From assembly GCA_022827885.1 (NCBI GenBank), contig JAJEIP010000122.1:1-32473 (forward strand): 32,473 bases of DNA, given 5' to 3'. This DNA is from Candidatus Poribacteria bacterium. GTDB lineage: Bacteria; Poribacteria; WGA-4E; WGA-3G. Positions 7,490-24,273 of the stretch are shown here, one piece after another. The stretch's first letter is position 1, and each line of letters begins with the position of its first letter. The notes under the pieces were generated by a model. It had not been told where the DNA came from and made no database searches. It was given only the letters and a program-made list of their open reading frames with translations. The translations under genes were made by a program, and so were the position numbers.

Positions 7490-8764
7490 CTAAGGGGCGG
7501 GGTCTACGACAACACCGATAAATAGCACCGTTTTTGTCTGATTATCACGAATCGCAAGGAAAAAGGGGCGGTCTATAGTAAAAGGAATTGGTGGCGGTGG
7601 AGCACTGGTTATGCCAACTATCCCAACACTGGTTGCTGCTGCGGCTTCAGTCCCTTCTTCATTGACCTCAACGAAGGTTTTATGGCTAACTTCGTTAATA
7701 TACAAATTATCCCAAGGTAAAAGTTCTAAAGGTGCCATCCGGCTGAAATTTGCAAGTTCCGGATCAAACGCGACATCCATGCCGAGTGCTTGCAACGTGT
7801 CGTTAAGATTCCTTTCATACTTCAACTTAAATTTGGGCATAACAAGTGACACGTCTTGTCCATGAAACCGGGACAGCCAATTCTCCCAACGTTCGGCGTT
7901 CAAATTCTCTAAAAAGGTGTTGAGATCGGATTCGGGATCTGGGAGAAAGATATACATACGCATCCGACCATCCCCATAAGCGAGGCTGATCGCTTGAAAA
8001 TTTTCCCCTCGGTAGTATGGATACCGGCGCTGCTGTCTCATCATTGGTACCTGTTTTACATTACCATTTGCGAGATAGAAAGAATCATCTTGTGTCCTTG
8101 ATGGGTCAAACTCTCGCTGCCATGCGCCTTTGAAGTAGATGGCGTTGATGAGGAACAACACCGTATCTGGATCACTTGTATCTCCAACGATTTTTTGAAT
8201 TTTACCGTTTGTATTGGTATCTACCCACTGGTTAATTGTTTTGGAAGCACTCGGATCGTTAAAGTCGAGCATCGAAATTTCCGCCTCAAAAAAGTGGGCG
8301 TTTCGCTGGAGGAAACTCTGATGGAATGGGATACCTTGGCGTGCCCAAAGCGAGTTTGCAATCGTGAGTGTTACCTTCGGATCTGATGTTAAAAGCGTCT
8401 GGCGTAATCCAGCATAACCGACGTTAATCGCTTCGGCGTCTAATCCTTGGAGTTGCAATGTGTTGGTCATCGCTTGTTCAGTTTCTCCGGCTGCGCCGTT
8501 TAGCGTCATCGCTAAGGCAAGAGAAACACTGAGAGGCGAAATAAAAATATTCTTATCCTGCTCAGTTTTACGGATTTCATCGAACAACTTAAAACCAAAT
8601 TGCGTATTCGCTGTGACAACACTGTCATCAATGGGACCAATCTCGGGTCCAACTTCCTTCTTGTCGAGCATATCAAGCCGCATCTCATCACATCCGGCAA
8701 GTATTAGCAGAACTGAACATAAGAATCCAAGAAAGGTTTTTATGGGTGTCTGTTTTTTATTCAT
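7490..8764 (-). CDS. Lipoprotein serpin (serine protease inhibitor)
   Basis: 424 aa. The N-terminus is a lipoprotein signal with lipobox LILAGC. The serpin core follows: NIFISPLSVSLALAMTLNGA, the NAIYFKGAWQREFD strand, MPKFKLKYERNL, and the C-terminal RPFFLAIRDNQTKTVLFIG. The hinge EEGTEAAAAT (about 369-378) matches inhibitory serpins with small residues at P15-P9, so it is probably a true trap-type inhibitor. Counting from the hinge places P1-P1' at Ile385-Thr386, followed by a PPPP segment; this suggests a target cleaving after hydrophobic residues. It is upstream of and adjacent to the peptidase gene. As an outer-surface or periplasmic lipoprotein it may protect the cell from host or own proteases. 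Confidence 0.92.
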   Translation of the reverse strand: MNKKQTPIKTFLGFLCSVLLILAGCDEMRLDMLDKKEVGPEIGPIDDSVVTANTQFGFKLFDEIRKTEQDKNIFISPLSVSLALAMTLNGAAGETEQAMTNTLQLQGLDAEAINVGYAGLRQTLLTSDPKVTLTIANSLWARQGIPFHQSFLQRNAHFFEAEISMLDFNDPSASKTINQWVDTNTNGKIQKIVGDTSDPDTVLFLINAIYFKGAWQREFDPSRTQDDSFYLANGNVKQVPMMRQQRRYPYYRGENFQAISLAYGDGRMRMYIFLPDPESDLNTFLENLNAERWENWLSRFHGQDVSLVMPKFKLKYERNLNDTLQALGMDVAFDPELANFSRMAPLELLPWDNLYINEVSHKTFVEVNEEGTEAAAATSVGIVGITSAPPPPIPFTIDRPFFLAIRDNQTKTVLFIGVVVDPAP

Positions 8765-13936: not shown

Positions 13937-14671
13937 GTGGAGATAGTTGACTGCATGAAAAAGAAATTTTATATGTCTGATTTGAAAAACACACTCACAC
14001 ATATTCTTGAACACGAACGACAGTTGGCAGACGCGAATGAAGCAACTACGCAACAGTATGTTGTGCTGCCGATACTCAGAGCATTAGGGTGGGACGATAC
14101 CCATTTAGCAGCTATGGAGGTTGTGCCAGAGTATCAGGTCGAAAGCAGAAGGGCGGATTACGCCCTGTATGTCAAACCTGATGAGAGTCCTGTAGTGCTC
14201 ATCGAGTGCAAACGGTGGAACGAGCCAATCGCAAGACACGAGGAACAGATCTGCTTCTACGCCTATAGCGGAAATATACCGCTCGCCATCATCACAAACG
14301 GCAGACACTGGCGGTTTTACCTTCCGCATTGGAGAGCCTCCAGTTTGGCGGATAGGATCTTTTGTGAAATCGATATTGCAGATCAATACAGTAAGGCTAT
14401 CCGAAAACAAAGGTTTCGGAGTCAATCTCTTTTTGTGTTGATAGCAACAACGATTAGCCAAAGACCCATTATTAATGTTTTCGTCAATATTCGATATGTT
14501 AAACGAGGTATCGCTCGTAGGCTCGCCAACACCGTTCTAAAGGTGGAGGACAGGATTTGGCGCGGGAAGCACCAAGTTAAAATTCCTGTCCACGAGCTTG
14601 GATATAGTATAGCAGAAAACAAAGGAGAGCTCAAGACGATTCATCGAGGGAGAATTGCCATCGGGATGTAA
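13937..14671 (+). CDS. Stand-alone PD-(D/E)xK protein, HsdR N-terminal-like
   Basis: 244 aa from GTG 13937; the likelier start is ATG 13955 or 13973 (MSDLKNTL). Residues 15-150 match the nuclease domain of type I restriction HsdR subunits: helix with QQYVVLPILRALGWD, E63, D74 (RRADYALYV), E90-C-K92 (VVLIECKRW), and the NGRHWRFYLPHW strand. After about residue 150 the sequence loses family character and is basic, without the usual helix that ends this domain. The gene may therefore be truncated, with the frame reading into unrelated DNA. No helicase, HsdM or HsdS is adjacent. It starts 25 bp after the IS3 remnant. Confidence 0.7.
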   Translation: MEIVDCMKKKFYMSDLKNTLTHILEHERQLADANEATTQQYVVLPILRALGWDDTHLAAMEVVPEYQVESRRADYALYVKPDESPVVLIECKRWNEPIARHEEQICFYAYSGNIPLAIITNGRHWRFYLPHWRASSLADRIFCEIDIADQYSKAIRKQRFRSQSLFVLIATTISQRPIINVFVNIRYVKRGIARRLANTVLKVEDRIWRGKHQVKIPVHELGYSIAENKGELKTIHRGRIAIGM

Positions 14672-14841: not shown

Positions 14842-15423
14842 CTACACTTCCTTAGTTTTTACCAATTTAAGTTTCATAAGAAAAGAAAGTACTTTTTTGA
14901 TGTCCTTCTCAGTGAAATCCCAGCCATATTCTTTAGCTGTCTGGCAAACCTCTTTTACACTCTTTTCTCCTTCCCAATCAACAATGTAATGCACTTTTGC
15001 TGCGATTGAGAGAAGATTAAAATTATTCGCAATTTTCCGATCGTTGATTTTCTTAAGTGCTCTGTCCCATTTATGGAAATCGTTTTTTTTCTGAGTGACC
15101 TGCCAGGCTCTGTTTCCTGCATCTGTGAGAAAATACGTATGTCGGCGCTTTTCACCTAAAGCATTCCGCTCGGTTGAGTCCGTGGTAAAAAATTCTGTAA
15201 CCTCTTTAAAGATACCATCCTCGACTAAGCCATTTAGGTGTTCTGCAACAAAAGCACTATAAGGCCCGTAGTAGTGAGCAGAAAATCCAAAATTTGCTTT
15301 TTGGAGTACCGATAAGAAGTAGAGTTTTTTTTGGAGGAGTGTTCTACCATGTAGACCATCTTTTCCTTCCCTCTCAACAACGAGTAACAAAACATCAGTA
15401 ATCCGCACATTATCTCCTTTCAT
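14842..15423 (-). CDS. YwgA-like winged-helix protein
   Basis: 193 aa. The pattern GRTLLQKKLYFLSVLQKANFGFSAHYYGPYSAFVAEHLNGLVEDGIF followed by YFLTDAG matches the YwgA/SocA-type winged-helix group (LQK-YF, YGPYS, then Y-LT-G). The ATG overlaps the stop of the upstream HD gene in an ATGA, so the pair is translationally coupled. An internal GTG (15408) has a much better ribosome site (AAAGGAG, 5 nt away) and may be the real start. In Bacillus subtilis, ywgA also sits beside ywfO, which encodes the same kind of HD protein, so the pairing seems conserved over large distances. It probably modulates the HD enzyme or its transcription; this is inference. Confidence 0.7.
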   Translation of the reverse strand: MKGDNVRITDVLLLVVEREGKDGLHGRTLLQKKLYFLSVLQKANFGFSAHYYGPYSAFVAEHLNGLVEDGIFKEVTEFFTTDSTERNALGEKRRHTYFLTDAGNRAWQVTQKKNDFHKWDRALKKINDRKIANNFNLLSIAAKVHYIVDWEGEKSVKEVCQTAKEYGWDFTEKDIKKVLSFLMKLKLVKTKEV

Positions 15424-16817
15424 GAAGAGCGTAAAATGTCTTGAATTTCACGCTTCTTTTTTTCTGATACTTGATATGGGGCATAGACTTGAACGATTTC
15501 TAAAGGAGAGGCACCCTCATAGCGTCTCGCGAGAAACAGTTCACCCGCGTAGTCACTTAGGGACTCTAATCCATCTTGTTCCTTGTTATTTTCGTCAAAA
15601 ATCATAACCGCCTCCGAACTCTGGAGTTTGGATTGACTGTCATAATTCAAATTCCGAACCGGAGGTTTGTTAACAATAATATAATCAGCATCGGCTTTGC
15701 GGCCTATACACTTCGCAATCTTTTTCTCACATTGGCGTTTTCGGTCCGGATCCGCTACCATTTCTCGAAGGCAATCACGGACTTCCACCTCTTCATATTT
15801 GAACCTGAGTCCAGCAATTGTATTGAAAAGGTCTCGATTGTAAAGTCGATTGAAAATTTTATTTGCTTTCTGCTGTTTACAATTCCTCAAAAGGTCAATT
15901 ACCTTTTCATCATGATAATCAAGATAGTTTTGAACGAAATCTTTACACTTTTTCTCATAGTCTTGATCGGTATCTTTCTTATTTCTTCTGGGGTATTTAT
16001 AAAGTTTGGCGATTTTTTTATTGCCATTCTCAATAGCAAGGGTAATCCCACGAATAACCATCTCATCGGAAATGAGACTGACTTCGTGCCAGTATACTTG
16101 CTGTTTCATATTATACCGAGCGAGCATAAATTGTTCGAGAGCATAAAGTCCTTCGCTGTTAAGAACAAGTTGTGTTTCGGGATGGTTAACGATCAAGCAA
16201 GATTCGATGAGCTTCTCCAGATCGTATGCTCCATACTTAACACCGGCAAAATAGGAATCACGCAGAAGGTAGTCCATCTTATCCGCGTCTAACTCACTCG
16301 AAATGATATCGCGTTTCCAGTCCCGTGTTGTTTTCCCTTGTATCATGTCAATTAAGGATTCACGTTCTTTATCATCCAGAATGTCTTTGATTTGCGAATC
16401 GTTACAAATAATATCTATTGTGATTTGCTCATGAATCTTTTCGCGGTCTATTCCCATATAAACTTGGGCAGGTGCAAATTTTTTCAAAAGACTTTCAGAA
16501 AGATGACTAAACGGGCCGTGCCCAACATCATGAAGCAACGCTGCGAAACGAACATTAGCAATGTCCTTATCACTAATTCTATCGGGGTTTAACTCGTGGA
16601 GACTGGTGCAAATTCGACCAGCGATGTGCATCACACCGATTGAATGCTCAAAGCGCGTATGTAGAGCACTCGGATAAATCAAAAACGCCATTGCCAATTG
16701 CCGAATCCGACGGAGCCGCTGAAAAACTCGGGTGTCGATCAACTGCTGTTCTCTCTCTGAAAAATCAATAAGCCCATGAATTGGGTCTCGTATTCTTCTA
16801 TAAGTTTGTTTCGCCAT
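15420..16817 (-). CDS. HD-domain dNTP triphosphohydrolase (SAMHD1/YwfO-like)
   Basis: 465 aa. Opening RRIRDPIHGLI, then VFQRLRRIRQLAMAF, H58 (RFEHSIGV), H96-D97 (LLHDVGHGPFSH) and the later SSELDADKMDYLLRD. These are the HD metal ligands and signature strings of SAMHD1 and of the bacterial YwfO/EF1143 dNTPases, which split dNTPs into nucleoside and triphosphate. Bacterial dNTPases of this type can act in dNTP-pool control and phage defence. The C-terminal half (about 300-440) is helical and basic. A promoter with -10 only 6 bp from the ATG implies a leaderless transcript. It is coupled to a YwgA-like gene. Confidence 0.88.
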   Translation of the reverse strand: MAKQTYRRIRDPIHGLIDFSEREQQLIDTRVFQRLRRIRQLAMAFLIYPSALHTRFEHSIGVMHIAGRICTSLHELNPDRISDKDIANVRFAALLHDVGHGPFSHLSESLLKKFAPAQVYMGIDREKIHEQITIDIICNDSQIKDILDDKERESLIDMIQGKTTRDWKRDIISSELDADKMDYLLRDSYFAGVKYGAYDLEKLIESCLIVNHPETQLVLNSEGLYALEQFMLARYNMKQQVYWHEVSLISDEMVIRGITLAIENGNKKIAKLYKYPRRNKKDTDQDYEKKCKDFVQNYLDYHDEKVIDLLRNCKQQKANKIFNRLYNRDLFNTIAGLRFKYEEVEVRDCLREMVADPDRKRQCEKKIAKCIGRKADADYIIVNKPPVRNLNYDSQSKLQSSEAVMIFDENNKEQDGLESLSDYAGELFLARRYEGASPLEIVQVYAPYQVSEKKKREIQDILRSS

Positions 16818-17314: not shown

Positions 17315-17344
17315 TTGACAAACTGCTGGATTTATGTTAACATA
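17315..17344 (+). promoter_or_regulatory. Promoter with overlapping palindrome for the two-gene module
   Basis: TTGACA (17315-17320), 17-bp spacer, TAACAT (17338-17343). The -10 is embedded in the perfect 12-bp palindrome TATGTTAACATA (17333-17344), a good place for a repressor to block RNA polymerase. The predicted leader to the ATG at 17443 is about 90 nt. Confidence 0.6.
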
Positions 17345-17401
17345 TTGTCTAAAATTTCGGTTCACCATATTTTCCTGATAAATTTGTAACTACAACAGAA
17401 G

Positions 17402-17432
17402 TTTACCTGAAACCTCAATTTTTTCAGGTAAA
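17402..17432 (+). promoter_or_regulatory. Inverted repeat just before the module's ribosome site
   Basis: TTTACCTGAAA (17402-17412) and TTTCAGGTAAA (17422-17432) are perfect 11-bp arms with a 9-nt loop. The right arm runs into the AAAAGG ribosome site of the gene starting at 17443. As RNA it could hide or present that site; as DNA it could be a second operator. Confidence 0.6.
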
Positions 17433-17442
17433 AGGTTGATTG

Positions 17443-18432
17443 ATGCTCATGTATAAGGTTAATCCAAATACACATCAAGATTACCGCTCACTCCTCCAAA
17501 AAGCCGTACGTCGTGGCAACGATGACCTTGTTGGTAAGGTCGTGGATCATCTTTATCAGGTCGATGATGCGGCATGGCTAAAGAGGCGAACCGGTGTAAT
17601 TATTGCTGAAGAATGCTGGCCTCTCATGGCAAAATGGGAACTGCCCAAAAAATTGGGGGAACAGCAAGCAGCAATAAAAGATATTCTTAGTCAGGTTGCT
17701 TCATCGAAGAAATTTAAGGATGCTGCTGGATTAGGGTCCTTGGCGTACGCACTTTCAGAAGGCGACAGTTCAGTACTAACTAGTTCTGACGAAGACTGTC
17801 ATATTAAGCTTATTAGTGCTGCTATTAAGGAACCTAAAAAATACTGGGGATGGGCAGTCTCTCAGTGCCGAAACGACTCTGTGACTAGGCTCGTTACGCA
17901 AGCAGAGAAAGCCTATCGAAAAGGTGGATGGCCCTGGGATCGGGCTTTTATACAAGCAACAGCATATTTAGCTATTAAGAATGGAATGCCTGAGATGCCT
18001 ATAGTTCATAATGTCAAAGCGAGATTCCCGTTTTGGGTCGCATTAGATAAACACACTCCACAAGGAAAAACTGCTCTTCGCGAAGCCGCAAAGAAGACTG
18101 GATTACCCTGGAGGCAGCTGAATTGGGTTAGTTTTTACTGTGAAAGTGGTCTCGTTGATGATTCGATATCCTCTCAATGGTGGAATCGGGAGATAGAATG
18201 GCGACTCGGCAAAATAGGTCTATCACTCGACACAGCAGAATCAATGTGGGCGGAAGCACGTCCGGAATTTATTAAAGCACTAAGGAATGAGCCAGCACGC
18301 CTTGAAGGTATTTTTGGAGATAGTACGCCTTATAGTATGGATGAGAGTGGACAACTTCACTTTTTAAGTCCTAAGGAACGACAATTCTATGATCACTGGC
18401 AGCCAGATTCAATCTTTAGTCGATCTGCTTGA
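17443..18432 (+). CDS. Unrecognised helical protein, first gene of a two-gene module
   Basis: 329 aa from ATG 17443, chosen because AAAAGG lies 7 nt upstream; a TTG at 17440 and an ATG at 17449 are in frame. No catalytic motif is evident. The stretch YRSLLQKAVRRGNDDLVGKV, then WLKRRTGVIIAEECWPL, resembles the helical C-terminal part of MgsA/RarA-type clamp-loader-like AAA proteins (LQK-RRG, then W-RR--VI-EE), but no Walker motifs exist here. The rest is Trp-rich and helical (GWAVSQC, GGWPWDRAF, LPWRQLNWVSF). The next gene starts inside its 3' end, so the products are probably made together. It could be a DNA-replication-protein mimic, an antitoxin or an immunity component. Confidence 0.7.
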   Translation: MLMYKVNPNTHQDYRSLLQKAVRRGNDDLVGKVVDHLYQVDDAAWLKRRTGVIIAEECWPLMAKWELPKKLGEQQAAIKDILSQVASSKKFKDAAGLGSLAYALSEGDSSVLTSSDEDCHIKLISAAIKEPKKYWGWAVSQCRNDSVTRLVTQAEKAYRKGGWPWDRAFIQATAYLAIKNGMPEMPIVHNVKARFPFWVALDKHTPQGKTALREAAKKTGLPWRQLNWVSFYCESGLVDDSISSQWWNREIEWRLGKIGLSLDTAESMWAEARPEFIKALRNEPARLEGIFGDSTPYSMDESGQLHFLSPKERQFYDHWQPDSIFSRSA

Positions 18433-19300
18433 GGAACGTCGGGTGTTTCTCCACCACGCGTGTCAGCTAATTGACTTTGAATCATATCTTAGTCTCGGTG
18501 GAATCCCTTCACGCGCTTTGCTTGAAAGTAAACAAGTGAAATTCACGGAATTTCAGACTGATGCCATTGATCGTAAAAATAGTGTATGGGATAAAGTGTT
18601 TGTAAACTTAGCGGACTTTGGTGAATCGTTTGCCCGCGGTGATAGGAGCGTACCGAACCCGTATGGACCCATACTTTTCCAAATCCTGCCTTCGGCTTTA
18701 TTGGAAACATCTGATGTAGCTGTATGTCTTCGGTCTGCTGGAGCGCAAGGATTTAACCGAGAAAGAGAATCACTTACGACAGTCAAGGAAATTGACCGCC
18801 TATTTTTACACCCAAATAATGTTCTTCCGTTCCCTAAGAGACGTATGATTAAGTTTGGAGATAGGCTACAAGCAGAATTTGAAAACCCAAATGCTCAAAC
18901 TCCAGAAGTTAGTTGTACAGTGTCAAGCGGCGTAGTGTCAATGCAAAGGGTCAAGTTTGTTAGGGTTGATCCATATGTTGTAAACAATCAAAGGCTGCGA
19001 AATTGGGCAGATAAAATCAAGCAAGAATATAGCGTTCAGTTTCCTATTTACGAGCGTAATCGTTTTCAAAATTCAAGAGGACTTCTTTATAACCAAATCG
19101 CGGAACGAATTGGTGAAGAACTTCCATCGTTGTCTGCTATTGTACAAGATAGCACGTGTAGTCCACTTTTACGGGAGTGGGCAGAACAAATCACTGGCCT
19201 AGAATGGCAGTTCCAACGGTACGCTAAATACTTACGTGATGGCACACTTGAACCGATGAGAGCAGGGATGATGTCTAGCGAACAACAAGTGAATGGGTAG
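18389..19300 (+). CDS. Unrecognised protein, second gene of the module (possible ADP-ribosyltransferase fold)
   Basis: 303 aa from ATG 18389 (44-bp overlap with the previous gene); a GTG at 18443 with GAGGA 7 nt upstream, just past the previous stop, is an alternative. The N-terminal pattern FLHHACQ, then YLSLGGIPSRALL, loosely recalls the His and Ser/Arg positions that open DarT-like NAD-using toxins. Conserved-looking strings follow: VWDKVFVNLADFG, NPYGPILFQILP, VAVCLRSAG. I cannot prove the ADP-ribosyltransferase relation. The stop codon is only 2 bp before the left end of IS3 copy 2, so the C-terminus (SSEQQVNG) may have been altered by the insertion. Confidence 0.65.
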   Translation: MITGSQIQSLVDLLEERRVFLHHACQLIDFESYLSLGGIPSRALLESKQVKFTEFQTDAIDRKNSVWDKVFVNLADFGESFARGDRSVPNPYGPILFQILPSALLETSDVAVCLRSAGAQGFNRERESLTTVKEIDRLFLHPNNVLPFPKRRMIKFGDRLQAEFENPNAQTPEVSCTVSSGVVSMQRVKFVRVDPYVVNNQRLRNWADKIKQEYSVQFPIYERNRFQNSRGLLYNQIAERIGEELPSLSAIVQDSTCSPLLREWAEQITGLEWQFQRYAKYLRDGTLEPMRAGMMSSEQQVNG

Positions 19301-19302
19301 AG

Positions 19303-19541
19303 TGTACTGCCACCGGAAATTCGGACCACCTTCTGGACCAAGATTGTGATACAATAACAATCTACTTGAAAGGAATTTCCGATGGCGAAACAAAAACGAA
19401 GAAACTTCACCCCTGAGTTTAAAGCCGAAGTTATTCTTGAGACACTTACGGGTGAAAATTCCCAAGCAGAACTATCTCACCGCTATAATCTCAGCGACAA
19501 CCAACTTTCAAAGTAGAAGCACCAGAGACTCGTGATGACTG
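19303..19541 (+). mobile_element. Truncated IS3-family element, copy 2
   Basis: The left end TGTACTGCCACCGGAAATTC is similar to copy 1 at 13477. It contains the first 44 codons of orfA and then a TAG where copy 1 has TGG (Trp), followed by about 25 bp of unrelated sequence. Nothing of the right end remains. Same orientation as copy 1. The right boundary is approximate. Confidence 0.8.
19382..19516 (+). pseudogene. IS3-family orfA, nonsense-mutated and truncated
   Basis: Encodes AKQKRRNFTPEFKAEVILET and the start of the HTH (SQAELSHRYNLSDNQLSK), then TAG at 19514. It aligns with the intact OrfA at 13557 throughout. Inactive. Confidence 0.88.
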
Positions 19542-19571: not shown

Positions 19572-19608
19572 TCACCATTGTAAAATTTTGTTAACTGGAG
19601 AGATAAAC

Positions 19609-21336
19609 ATGAGTACTTTTGATATTGGCCAACCTTTCCTTCAAGATTTGCTCAAAGAAATCGGAAGTGGTAAGATACAACTACCTGATTTCCAGCGGGG
19701 ATGGGTGTGGAACGATGACCGTATCCGAAGCCTTATCGCCAGCATATCTCGGGATTTTCCCATTGGTTCCGTGCTCACCCTCAAAGCCCGAGACACAGAT
19801 ATCTGTTTCAAAACAAGACTCGTTGCGGGGGTGAATGCTACGGATGTTCACAGGGAACCCGATACCCTTATACTTGATGGACAACAACGGCTCACCGCGC
19901 TGTTTCAAACCTTAATGTCGAAAAACGGGGTTTCTACGAGAAACGCTCAAGGGAGGACAAGGCGTTTATATTATTACTTGGACATGAAAGCGTGTCTTGG
20001 AAACGAAACAGAGCGCGAGGAGGCTGTCGTTTCTTGTGGAAAAGATCATCGTTTGCAAGTATTGACATCTAATGGAAAAGCAGAAACTATTGACCTTTCA
20101 TCAACTCAAGATCAGTATGAAAAACACATGTTTCCAGTGCACAAGATTTTCGACTCTTCCGATTGGAAGCAAGGATACATACAACATTGGAATCAGGACG
20201 CTGAGAAAATTACGTCGCTCTTCAAATTCGACACTGAGATAATTCAACGCTTTAATCAATACGAGGTTCCTATTATTGAGTTAAGTGGGGCCTCAAAAGA
20301 AGCCGTTTGCTTGGTATTTGAGAAAGTAAACACCGGAGGGATAACACTCACTGTATTTGAGCTTCTCACGGCATCCCTCGCTGCTGAAAACTTCCAATTG
20401 CGTGATGATTGGGAACTTAGAAAAAAATGTCTCAGAGAGCATAAGGGGCTAAGAAAACTGGATGGTATCAACTTTCTACAAGCACTTACACTGATCGATA
20501 CCAAAAATCTAAACGCGGCAGTGAGTTGCAAGCGTAAAGAAATCCTTGAGTTGGATCGAAAGCGTTATGAAGAGTGGGCAGATCAAATTGAGGTTGGATT
20601 TCTGAAGGCTGCTCGATTTTTGCATAGACAGAAAGTATTTAATGCGAAAGATGTTCCGTATTCAGCTCAACTTGTCCCGCTGGCAGCGATTCTAACGGAT
20701 TTGGGGAATAGAAGTGAAACAGAAGAAGTTCAGCAGAAGATTGCGCGTTGGTATTGGTGCGGTGTGCTTGGTGAGATGTATGCCGGTGCTACTGATACTC
20801 AGTCCGCTAGGGATTTCTCTGAAGTGACTACATGGATAAAAGAAGGTGGAAAGGAACCAACAACAATCCGGGAGGCAAATTTCCAAAAGAAGCGTTTATC
20901 TGAACTCCGGACCCGTGGTAGTGCCTTGTATAAGGGAATCCACGCGTTGATGATGCACGATGGAGGCGCATGCGATTTTCGCACTGGAATTCCTATTGAT
21001 GAGAAGGTATTTTTTGCGGACAGGATTGACATCCATCACATATTTCCAAGAGCCTGGTGCCAAAGAGAGGGCATCGACCGCAATATCTACAATAGTATTA
21101 TCAATAAAACAGCAATCTCAGCACGCACGAATCAAATGATCGGGGGGCGAGCCCCTTCAGAGTATTTACCACGAGTAGAAGGGACAGCTGGCATAGACGA
21201 AGACGAAATGGATAAGAGGCTTGCCGGTCACCTGATCTCTGCCGATGCTCTGCGAGATGATGATTTCTTGAGTTTCTTTGAAGCCCGCGAAGAAGCACTA
21301 TTTCGTGTAATCCAGAAAGCAATGGGGAAAATTTAG
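19609..21336 (+). CDS. DUF262/DUF1524-type protein (GmrSD-like)
   Basis: 575 aa from ATG 19609 (CTGGAGAG ribosome site, 7 nt). The N-terminal DUF262 domain is typical: LPDFQRGWVW (25-34), LIASISRDFPIGSVL, and the ParB-like nucleotide motif LILDGQQRLTALF (87-99). The C-terminus contains an HNH-type nuclease signature IDIHHIFPRAWC, then NSIINKTAIS, TNQMIGGRAPSEYL. This single-chain fusion of the two halves is the layout of GmrSD-type (type IV) modification-dependent restriction and related anti-phage proteins. It likely uses a nucleotide to license cleavage of modified DNA. It lies next to IS remnants and other nuclease genes. Target modification is unknown. Confidence 0.87.
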   Translation: MSTFDIGQPFLQDLLKEIGSGKIQLPDFQRGWVWNDDRIRSLIASISRDFPIGSVLTLKARDTDICFKTRLVAGVNATDVHREPDTLILDGQQRLTALFQTLMSKNGVSTRNAQGRTRRLYYYLDMKACLGNETEREEAVVSCGKDHRLQVLTSNGKAETIDLSSTQDQYEKHMFPVHKIFDSSDWKQGYIQHWNQDAEKITSLFKFDTEIIQRFNQYEVPIIELSGASKEAVCLVFEKVNTGGITLTVFELLTASLAAENFQLRDDWELRKKCLREHKGLRKLDGINFLQALTLIDTKNLNAAVSCKRKEILELDRKRYEEWADQIEVGFLKAARFLHRQKVFNAKDVPYSAQLVPLAAILTDLGNRSETEEVQQKIARWYWCGVLGEMYAGATDTQSARDFSEVTTWIKEGGKEPTTIREANFQKKRLSELRTRGSALYKGIHALMMHDGGACDFRTGIPIDEKVFFADRIDIHHIFPRAWCQREGIDRNIYNSIINKTAISARTNQMIGGRAPSEYLPRVEGTAGIDEDEMDKRLAGHLISADALRDDDFLSFFEAREEALFRVIQKAMGKI

Positions 21337-21826: not shown

Positions 21827-22009
21827 CTACATTTTAATCCATAACTGATATTTATCAAAAGTTTGTAGGCGTGGGGCTTCCAGGTCTAAAAAGGGGTATC
21901 GGTATGTTCCAGCGCGGCTTGCTTCTGTTTGCATTCCACGAGTCGGTGGTGATGTAATGACGAAAACGCCTAACTCGGCTTCCTCTTGGTTTGTTAACTT
22001 CTCAATTTC
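21827..22009 (-). pseudogene. C-terminal remnant of a second DNA methyltransferase
   Basis: In a frame different from the neighbouring methyltransferase, the sequence reads EIEKLTNQEEAELGVFVITS, then PPTRGMQTEASRAGTYRYPF and ends LQTFDKYQLWIKM and TAG (21827). The string AELGVFI(V)T.-PPT..M..EA..AG.Y is the C-terminal tail of a class of N4/N6 DNA methyltransferases. It has no start codon and begins at the stop codon of the intact methyltransferase-HNH gene. It therefore looks like the leftover tail of another methyltransferase, joined by recombination. Confidence 0.55.
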
Positions 22010-23415
22010 GCTATAAGATATTCCTGACCGCGATTCCCTTTGATACGGTTACAGTGGCCGCAAAGGAGTTGAAGATTCTCAATATGGTCAGTCCCTCCAA
22101 CAGATTCCGCTATAATGTGATCTATTTCAAGATGTTGGGTTTGAAAATGCTCACCGCATCCGTTACAGTTCCCCGCCTGCTCTCCATAGAGTTGGGTTTT
22201 GTTTTTAGGAGCATTATAGCGGGGAATGTGTCCCAAATCCGTGCGGTTGGGTATGTCATCGCGTGCAATAATGTTTTCAAACATACCTTGATCGTCCCTG
22301 ATACGCTCGACAACCAATTGAGCGGCCTTCGCTGATATGTCAATACCGATCCAATCCCGTTGAAGTCTATCCGCTGCGACAAGGGTTGTGGCGCATCCAC
22401 AGAACGGATCGAAAACCGTATCGCCTTCGTGAGATGAGGCTTTGATGATTCTGTCGAGGAGGGCAAGAGGTTTTTGCGTTGGGTAACCAGTGCCTTCTTT
22501 TCCCTTTACAGGTGGAGTATCAAGAACCAAGTCACCTGCTACAATACCTGGCATCGCAGATAAATACTTCTTCCACCGCGGTCTGCCTATTTTACCTTTG
22601 GGCCAGTGCAGCAGTCCAGCATCATCAAGAACTTCACATTTTGCCAGTTGGTCGAGATCTTCATAATTATCTGGCAACAGTGCCTGTGCAGAAGCAGGAA
22701 ATTTGTTGCGAGCAGGTGGGGCCCATGCCCGACCCGGAGGAGGTTCAATGCCTCTCAATGGCATATAAGCTTTTCTACTGCCTGCTTTTCCACCCGATAA
22801 ATTTTCTGTTCCGTATTTACCATGTTTGTCCCGACCTCGAAAAGTCTTCTGTATATATTCATCGTCATAGGGAGTATATTGTTGATTCCAAGTTGCCCCG
22901 TTAGACTTGATATAGTAAAGAATTCGGTCGGTGTTTACCGCGTAGCGTTTCGCCAACGATTTCGTCGATGTTCGCTTCCAAACCACCTCATTCCGAAAGT
23001 TCGCCTTCCCAAACACCGCATCCATAATCAACTTCAGGTAATGACTCATTGTCGAGTCACAGTGTAGATAGATCGATCCGGTAGGCTTGAGAATACGAAA
23101 CATTTCCAGTAACCGGACTGCCATGTAAATCAGATAAGATTTATCACTGTTTGTCATTGCCGCGTGGATAACTCGGTTGAGTTGGGGGTATTTCGCTTCG
23201 ATGAGATCAAGCCAAGCAACGTCAACATCTCGGAGTGTCCATGTATCTTTGAACTCAGCACCGGCAGCTTCTGAACCTATGGGTGCTGCATAGTTGGCAT
23301 TGCTATTGAAAGGTGGGTCAAGGTAGATTAAATCCACGGATGCACTGTTCATCCCGCGCATTATGGGCAGATTATCACCCGTAAATATCGTCTTGTGCTT
23401 AATATTTGAAGTCAT
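21994..23415 (-). CDS. DNA methyltransferase fused to a C-terminal HNH domain
   Basis: 473 aa from ATG 23415; an in-frame GTG at 23457 would add 14 residues. Beta-class order of motifs: DPPF at 33-36 (LIYLDPPFNSN) comes first, then the target-recognition region, then the SAM-binding VFDPFCGCATTLVAADRLQR and WIGIDIS near residue 360. DPPF implies methylation of an exocyclic amine (N6-adenine or N4-cytosine). After a linker (RTDLGHIPRYNAPKNKTQLY) comes an HNH domain: CNGCG, HLEIDHIIAES, then LQLLCGHCNRIKG, with four zinc-type cysteines. The HNH may give a self-contained cut-and-modify enzyme, or help DNA recognition. No strong ribosome site was seen. Confidence 0.88.
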   Translation of the reverse strand: MTSNIKHKTIFTGDNLPIMRGMNSASVDLIYLDPPFNSNANYAAPIGSEAAGAEFKDTWTLRDVDVAWLDLIEAKYPQLNRVIHAAMTNSDKSYLIYMAVRLLEMFRILKPTGSIYLHCDSTMSHYLKLIMDAVFGKANFRNEVVWKRTSTKSLAKRYAVNTDRILYYIKSNGATWNQQYTPYDDEYIQKTFRGRDKHGKYGTENLSGGKAGSRKAYMPLRGIEPPPGRAWAPPARNKFPASAQALLPDNYEDLDQLAKCEVLDDAGLLHWPKGKIGRPRWKKYLSAMPGIVAGDLVLDTPPVKGKEGTGYPTQKPLALLDRIIKASSHEGDTVFDPFCGCATTLVAADRLQRDWIGIDISAKAAQLVVERIRDDQGMFENIIARDDIPNRTDLGHIPRYNAPKNKTQLYGEQAGNCNGCGEHFQTQHLEIDHIIAESVGGTDHIENLQLLCGHCNRIKGNRGQEYLIAKLRS

Positions 23416-23543
23416 GGCGATGTTCCGATTATCCCCTATCGAGTGGAAGGCAAACACGTGGTTTCCAAGCGGCTGCGCTTGATATGTCTGTCAATGTGAT
23501 AAGGAGAGTATAGCGGTTTATGTGCTTTTCTTCAAGGGAAATT

Positions 23544-23589: not shown

Positions 23590-24273
23590 TTACCTTGACT
23601 TTGCTGTTCTATGCGGGTCGCAAATCCCACAAGGGTCATAATTCTTTTCGGCTTCATCGAAATACATCGCAAATTTTTCCACACCGCGCTCCACCAAGAA
23701 CTCGCAAGTGTAGGTATGGTATTTTTTGCCTGTCCGCGTGATATAAACAATTGGCTCTGGCGGATCCGGCCACAGCAACAAAAGTGACGCGAGGCTAACA
23801 ATAAACAGAACGCCAAAAGTCAGAGCGATCCGTTTCCACCAGGGCGAAGTTCTATGCTTTGGTTGTCCGTCTATGTTTAAAGCCCCTGCCGGTACAGGCT
23901 TCCAGTTCTCAATGCCCCATTCAAAATCTTCCCTATTGATCTCAGCGAACCAATTGTTATATTTATTCTCGCAAAACTCCCAATTTCGGGAATCTGTCCC
24001 GACAGCCAACACACCATACCGCGTGTTAGTCGCACTCATATAACTTTTCAGTTGCGCTTTTGCTCGTCCTCGTAGGATGGGAAGGGGCCACTTCTTACAC
24101 TCTGCAATCGCGACAAAGTATCCTTTTTCATCCTTAATCGACTGATGCAGCACAACATCCGCGATACCCCCTTTCGTGCCGAAATAGATTTCACACTGCT
24201 GGGATACTGAAAATTGTGGAAATTTGTCGATAAAATAGGTTTTGACTGCCTGTTCTACTACGGCTTCTCTCAT
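23590..24273 (-). CDS. Membrane-anchored PD-(D/E)xK protein with Cys/His tail domain
   Basis: 227 aa in three parts. Residues 1-125: a restriction-endonuclease-like fold with D39 (GGIADVVLH) and E58-C-K60 (VAIAECKKW), then a basic helix RGRAKAQLKSYM. Residues 146-168: one membrane helix preceded by WWKR. Residues 176-220: VYITRTGKKYHTYTCEFL with H186 and C190, then PCGICDP with C215 and C218, the compact metal-binding domain that in other proteins reads YIT.TG.KYH...C..L...Y.PC..C. Inside-positive charge predicts the nuclease in the cytoplasm and the metal-binding tail outside. It is the last gene of a three-gene operon. Possibly a surveillance nuclease acting on DNA entering at the membrane. 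Confidence 0.75.
   Translation of the reverse strand: MREAVVEQAVKTYFIDKFPQFSVSQQCEIYFGTKGGIADVVLHQSIKDEKGYFVAIAECKKWPLPILRGRAKAQLKSYMSATNTRYGVLAVGTDSRNWEFCENKYNNWFAEINREDFEWGIENWKPVPAGALNIDGQPKHRTSPWWKRIALTFGVLFIVSLASLLLLWPDPPEPIVYITRTGKKYHTYTCEFLVERGVEKFAMYFDEAEKNYDPCGICDPHRTAKSR

Follow-up and report, generated by a model that had tools for sequence, protein, structure and literature searches.

An apparently mobile gene pair of Poribacteria encoding a stand-alone RarA/MgsA C-terminal-like protein and a remotely DarT-like protein

Among the described systems, the closest to the locus analyzed here are the DarT toxins and the RarA/MgsA (WRNIP1) proteins. DarT (PF14487, DUF4433) is encoded in a two-gene operon, DarTG, which is often inserted into other operons (PMC5179494), and its known partners are hydrolases, namely the macrodomain protein DarG (PMC5179494) and NADAR. 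In the Thermus enzyme, E160 is the catalytic residue and is essential for toxicity (PMC5179494). RarA/MgsA is an AAA+ ATPase with the MgsA_C domain (PF12002), and it acts at replication forks. The consensus for binding to the beta clamp is QL[S/D]LF or QxxLF (PMC12309361).

Poribacteria are sponge-associated bacteria. The window, that is, the whole stretch of 32,473 bp analyzed here, belongs to a poribacterial genome of 5.13 Mb (G000) and carries two genes, ORF1 and ORF2, which resemble parts of both systems.

The gene pair and its leader

ORF1 (17443..18432, 329 aa) and ORF2 (18389..19300, 303 aa) lie on the forward strand and overlap by 44 nt (18389-18432). For ORF1 the ATG at 17443 was preferred over the TTG at 17440, because an ATG or GTG is found at that point in the relatives, 7 nt past AAAAGG. 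Pairwise dN/dS values of 0.14-0.26 indicate purifying selection on both reading frames, which are therefore genuine genes. When 85 Poribacteria genomes were searched separately with each protein, the same 10 were found both times (G000, G038, G041, G047, G058, G059, G060, G070, G073, and G075), with the genes adjacent and in one copy each, and the start of ORF2 located from -44 to +19 nt relative to the end of ORF1. The overlapping unit proposed by a previous sequence-only reading is thus borne out, and its homologues strictly co-occur instead of being found only separately; a coupled adjacent pair, as is typical of type II-like toxin-antitoxin systems, was seen in 10 of 10 carriers.

ORF1 is intact in all ten carriers and ORF2 is broken in two of them: in G060 the frame is lost past residue 201, approximately, and in G070 a deletion of approximately residues 32-232 removes the larger part of the gene. 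This asymmetry is what would be expected if ORF2 were a toxin and ORF1 its antitoxin, the cases being few (2 versus 0). Bacterial genomes were also scanned with short peptide patterns, and the named relatives of ORF2 were Candidatus Poribacteria MAGs, which places the window in a poribacterium; considering that the wider genomes were covered with such patterns, relatives may exist beyond Poribacteria. By tblastn of the window proteins against phages and plasmids, the sole match was in Salinivibrio (E=0.2). The family profiles are accordingly shallow, with 10 close sequences for ORF1 and 9 for ORF2.

Upstream of the pair there is a sigma-70-like promoter, TTGACA-17-TAACAT (17315..17343, forward strand), with 10 of 12 consensus matches. 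Its -10 is embedded in a 12-bp palindrome, TATGTTAACATA (17333..17344), just as the sequence-only reading had described, and the palindrome is a candidate operator. It is found a single time in the genome of 5.1 Mb (0 occurrences of the pattern written backwards). The promoter is kept in the other two free-standing loci, G075 and G058, where the palindrome is identical as compared with 81% identity over the whole leader. A second, 11-bp inverted repeat (17402-17412/17422-17432), 5′ of the ribosome-binding site, is indeed perfect, but it is not conserved in either G075 or G058 and its hairpin is unremarkable (z -2.0, 12 of 200 shuffles folding equally well); it is probably not functional and was discarded as an operator. 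The proposal of autoregulation-style operators would apply only to the three free-standing copies, whereas the seven copies located in an ATP synthase operon do not have such a promoter.

Relationships of the two proteins

Residues 7-57 of ORF1 (17461..17613, forward strand) form an MgsA_C-like helical segment, which was aligned by hhalign to the C-terminal domains of RarA with P=5e-4, and with P=5e-6 once the phage protein gp084 was added. All of 150 column shuffles and the reversed profile had lower scores, and the cross-comparison with DarT was null. A search of the PDB with the ORF1 family profile (E<=10) gave three RarA/MgsA structures (E 0.3-1) and nothing else. The AlphaFold model was moderate (pLDDT 65), and 2r9g and E. 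coli MgsA were among its weak Foldseek matches. ORF1 and RarA/MgsA have in common the helical segment H-x-D-x-x-S-x-x-Q-K-(A/S)-(V/I)-R, as well as R-R-x-x-x-I-x-x-E-(D/E). In contrast to RarA/MgsA, ORF1 has no AAA+ domain, no Walker A is seen on inspection of the alignment, and its C-terminal half is different and bears D-x-H-T-x-x-G-K. Judging from these profile comparisons, ORF1 is related to the C-terminal domain of RarA/MgsA, stands alone, and lacks the ATPase; on this point hhalign, Foldseek, and the phage proteins that bridge both families agree with the MgsA/RarA-like string without ATPase motifs noticed at first.

Single-sequence scans of ORF1 and ORF2 against Pfam, NCBIfam, PADLOC, and PHROG gave nothing convincing, and the matches to Viral_helicase1 (E=0.04) and PRK10875 (E=0.0024) were dismissed as isolated and far under the cut-off. 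Neither a macrodomain nor a NADAR antitoxin domain could be recognised in the module; ORF1 thus has no ADP-ribosylglycohydrolase domain like that of the DarTG antitoxin, and the neighbours of the seven ATP-operon copies were atp or DJC28 genes. Since ORF1 is neither macrodomain nor NADAR, the antidote, if ORF2 modifies DNA, would not be of the known enzymatic kind, and inhibition would have to be by binding. Descent of ORF1 from a local RarA by decay was discarded, taking into account that none of 58 genomes of the window's family has an MgsA_C match, as against 9 of 14 control genomes, and that the relatives of ORF1 are viral.

The viral fold search with ORF1 gave proteins of phage DLP5 and of giant viruses. 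The ORF1 profile matched DLP5 gp084 with E=1.5e-9, collinearly across both halves, and gp084 itself matched RarA structures (2r9g, E=5e-4). A further member is found in Vibrio phage KarBoss, and 30 loci of this type were recovered from IMG/VR; 29 nonredundant viral members were analyzed. Members are located in the viral contigs L137-L167, L135 (7890-8948), and L136 (3504-4625). The family motif D-x-H-T-x-x-G-K/R, which in ORF1 is DKHTPQGK (residues 202-209, 18046..18069, forward strand), is common to gp084 and KarBoss, and HTxxG[KR] is present in 24 of 29 viral members and in 0 of 195 control ORFs. The viral proteins have no Walker A, leaving aside one spurious match in a tail. Some of these bridging sequences pass the Pfam cut-off of MgsA_C (PF12002), which together with the profile comparison supports the homology of ORF1 to this domain. 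Many match phrog_16866, for which ORF1 itself gave no direct match in the PHROG scan. The phrog_16866/gp084-type proteins share with ORF1 the stand-alone MgsA_C-like domain, the D-x-H-T-x-x-G-K/R motif, and, in many members, a clamp-like tail; they differ in being viral and in having no ADP-ribosyltransferase neighbour, given that no DarT-like or ORF2-like gene was found beside 31 viral loci. Going by these features, the viral family looks like a replisome-associated phage protein.

The tail is Q-x-x-L/M-F (QxxLF or QxxMF) in 7 of 29 viral members versus 0 of 195 controls (Fisher p=3e-7). Seven of the ten poribacterial ORF1, all of them the ATP-operon copies, end in QLSLF, QLNLF, QFSLF, or QLQLF past a variable linker, and they are alone in this among the 154 ORFs of these loci. 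In the other three copies (window, G075, and G058) the motif is degenerate; the window counterpart of Q[LF]xLF is QLHFL (residues 304-308, 18352..18366, forward strand), of which Q304 is invariant. Since this is the tail of the window copy, binding to the clamp may be proposed for the ORF1 family and is doubtful for the window protein.

For ORF2, the profile that included the Salinivibrio and viral relatives was compared by hhalign with a DarT alignment made of diverse Poribacteria DarTs and two solved DarT-type proteins. The result was P=2e-5 in local mode (probability 77%) and 7e-7 in global mode, and 1.5e-4 when those relatives were left out. The alignment begins in the strand-helix segment near the N-terminus and continues, in order, over the central part to the E-x-C-x-V-P segment of the catalytic Glu; none of 150 shuffles was as good, and reversed and cross comparisons were null. 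The loose N-terminal DarT-like pattern pointed out from the letters alone is therefore upheld as remote homology. Both proteins share, in the same order, an N-terminal H...L/F..I/YL..G..S and a C-terminal E-x-C-x-V-P-x-x-V-x-x-x-Y/H-I. Unlike DarT, ORF2 is missed by every DarT model, since PF14487 did not match it or 9 family members at E<=5, it passes no curated family threshold, and its partner has no macrodomain or NADAR. The AlphaFold model, obtained with nine sequences, failed (pLDDT 42), so that the PDB fold search was uninformative. Considering the PF14487 result and this poor model, we term ORF2 DarT-like and not DarT. True DarTs have genes of their own in 42 of 83 Poribacteria genomes, that of the window among them.

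His23 of ORF2 (codon 18455..18457, forward strand) is aligned to the H of the DarT-like Y-H-[IF]-T / H-F-T segment; this residue and Y92-G93-P94 are invariant in the family and are also present in the distant Salinivibrio protein. The candidate counterpart of the catalytic Glu in the E-x-L-V segment of DarT (E160 in Thermus) is Glu173 (codon 18905..18907, forward strand) in PE(V/I)SCTV, invariant in 9 of 9 poribacterial copies and not conserved in the Salinivibrio relative. From these alignments ORF2 is probably a divergent ADP-ribosyltransferase of the DarT-like kind, and its activity is a prediction. The hypothetical protein of the Salinivibrio plasmid NZ_CP114585 (P0001), found at E=0.2 only, and a relative in viral contig L050 share the N-terminal half of ORF2 with H-H-A, V-W-x-x-V-F, and Y-G-P, but the candidate catalytic Glu is missing from them; no ORF1 partner was found in the Salinivibrio record or in the viral contig. 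In L050 (3402-5711) an HD dGTPase-like gene is directly 5′ of the ORF2-like relative, and these two genes are possibly another two-gene system.

Location and neighbourhood

In seven carriers the pair is inside the F1Fo ATP synthase operon, on the same strand, between atpG and atpD. It sits 3′ of atpG, or 3′ of a DJC28-domain gene (PF09350) that follows atpG, and 5′ of atpD; both flanks were seen in G047, G041, G073, G060, and G070, and one flank, at a contig end, in G059 and G038. This location is no binning artefact, because G047 is a single-contig chromosome (OY282386.1). The slot is without the module in about 44 family genomes, including G000, G058, and G075, where atpG(-DJC28)-atpD is contiguous or has other content; the empty spacer is typically of about 50 nt in genus g4. 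Other cargo is found there as well: in G028, a DUF4258 gene and a second, small one separate the DJC28 gene from atpD (L120, 4251-4925, reverse strand), and in G062 there is a transposase-like gene. The slot is a minor hot spot for insertions, and it houses further cargo of the toxin-antitoxin-like kind. In our literature search nothing relevant was found on a DarT-MgsA pair or on toxin-antitoxin insertion in an ATP synthase operon.

The free-standing copies, which carry the promoter and palindrome, are those of the window, G075, and G058, the last two in a common other locus. In the window, an IS orfA copy (HTH_Tnp_1, PF01527; 13539..13693, forward strand) is to the left of the segment that bears the module and a second orfA fragment (19364..19518, forward strand) is directly to the right of ORF2; they form a direct repeat of 155 nt, 84% identical and 5.8 kb apart, with the module between. 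The relatedness of the two genes is discordant: ORF2 is 90% and ORF1 81% identical between G041 and G047, while between G041 and G038 the values are 90% for ORF1 and 68% for ORF2. In the case of G058, AtpD groups with G073/G070 but ORF1 groups with G000/G075. This discordance, together with the differing sites and empty slots, indicates that the module moves and recombines between copies, as far as can be read from the genomes compared.

Around the window copy there are HSDR_N-like genes (13937-14671 and 23590-24273), an HD dGTPase-like gene (15420-16817, reverse strand), a GmrSD_N/HEC-05-like protein of the restriction type, which matches HNH weakly and is encoded immediately downstream of the module (19588-21336, forward strand), and a fusion of an N6/N4 adenine methylase with an HNH nuclease domain at its C-terminus (21994-23457, reverse strand). 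The defence island of nucleases, methylase, and dNTPase that had been proposed is thus present, but it belongs to the locus of the window and not to the module. The HD gene overlaps a gene for a 193-aa protein like the DarG C-terminus (14842-16817, reverse strand; PADLOC E=8e-9, NCBIfam E=1.6e-5), and the two may be a further candidate defence pair beside the module; as a part of the module it was rejected, being absent from the nine other module loci. The window also has a full-length serpin (7490-8764, reverse strand; Pfam E=7e-124).

What the pair may do

We consider it somewhat probable (about 55%) that the pair is a mobile toxin-antitoxin or immunity module in which ORF1 restrains the DarT-like ORF2. 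ORF1 would be made first and be coupled to ORF2 by the gene overlap; being RarA-collar-like and ATPase-less, it would bind and restrain ORF2, the putative ADP-ribosylating and toxic effector. The C-terminal tail of ORF1 would, in most copies, dock on the sliding clamp of the DNA polymerase, and ORF2 would in this way be held, or released, at replication forks. Such a module may defend against phages, stabilize the locus that carries it, or do both. That ORF2 is exchanged among modules speaks against a pairing of narrow specificity, and it also counts against this reading that the window ORF1 is without a canonical clamp motif, that the viral relatives of ORF1 are without an ORF2-like neighbour, and that ORF2 has no curated family, a model of pLDDT 42, and a Salinivibrio relative lacking Glu173.

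Taking into account that RarA acts at forks and that most ORF1 have a clamp-type tail, the version of the proposal with most interest is that in which ORF2 would be tethered to the replisome. In it, a virus-type collar of RarA without ATPase would carry or restrain a DarT-like enzyme at the sliding clamp, where DNA of the fork, perhaps that of a phage, would be ADP-ribosylated, and the module would spread inside the ATP synthase operon, driven by an essential promoter. We advance this complete picture tentatively, as less likely than not.

It is rather unlikely, though the viral relatives of ORF1 and the defence genes adjoining the window copy fit the idea, that the pair is a defence of the guard type, with ORF1 acting not as a classical constitutive antitoxin but as a sensor or decoy that resembles a clamp-associated RarA-like protein of the phage replisome, and ORF2 being freed only on infection. 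The patchy distribution and the exchange of ORF2 would suit an arms race and an anti-phage role, but seven copies are in a housekeeping operon and not in a defence island.

A nontoxic role in replication or repair, in which ORF1 would substitute for RarA at stalled forks and ORF2 would regulate ORF1 or modify DNA during repair, would agree with the lack of MgsA_C matches in the 58 family genomes, with the clamp-like tail, and with the constitutive operon that houses 7 of the 10 copies. We regard it as unlikely, because the pair is confined to 10 of 85 genomes and most RarA-less genomes of the family therefore do without it, and because two carriers have lost ORF2 by mutation. It is very unlikely that ORF2 is no ADP-ribosyltransferase, its likeness to DarT being coincidental, and that the pair does something else. 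This view would agree with the lack of any significant Pfam, NCBIfam, PADLOC, or PHROG assignment and with the failed structure model; against it, the profile-profile comparison scored higher than every shuffled, reversed, or cross control, the segments follow each other as in DarT, and a Glu is conserved.

If the reading of a module in which ORF1 restrains ORF2 is true, DarT-like toxins, so far paired with macrodomain or NADAR hydrolases, would have a new type of partner, a fragment of a replication-fork protein of viral kind. It also suggests a function, association with the clamp, for the broad viral family phrog_16866. For the Poribacteria, a toxin-like module lodged between the genes for the gamma and beta subunits of the ATP synthase is an unusual case, and the empty sites of close relatives allow its cost and benefit to be studied.
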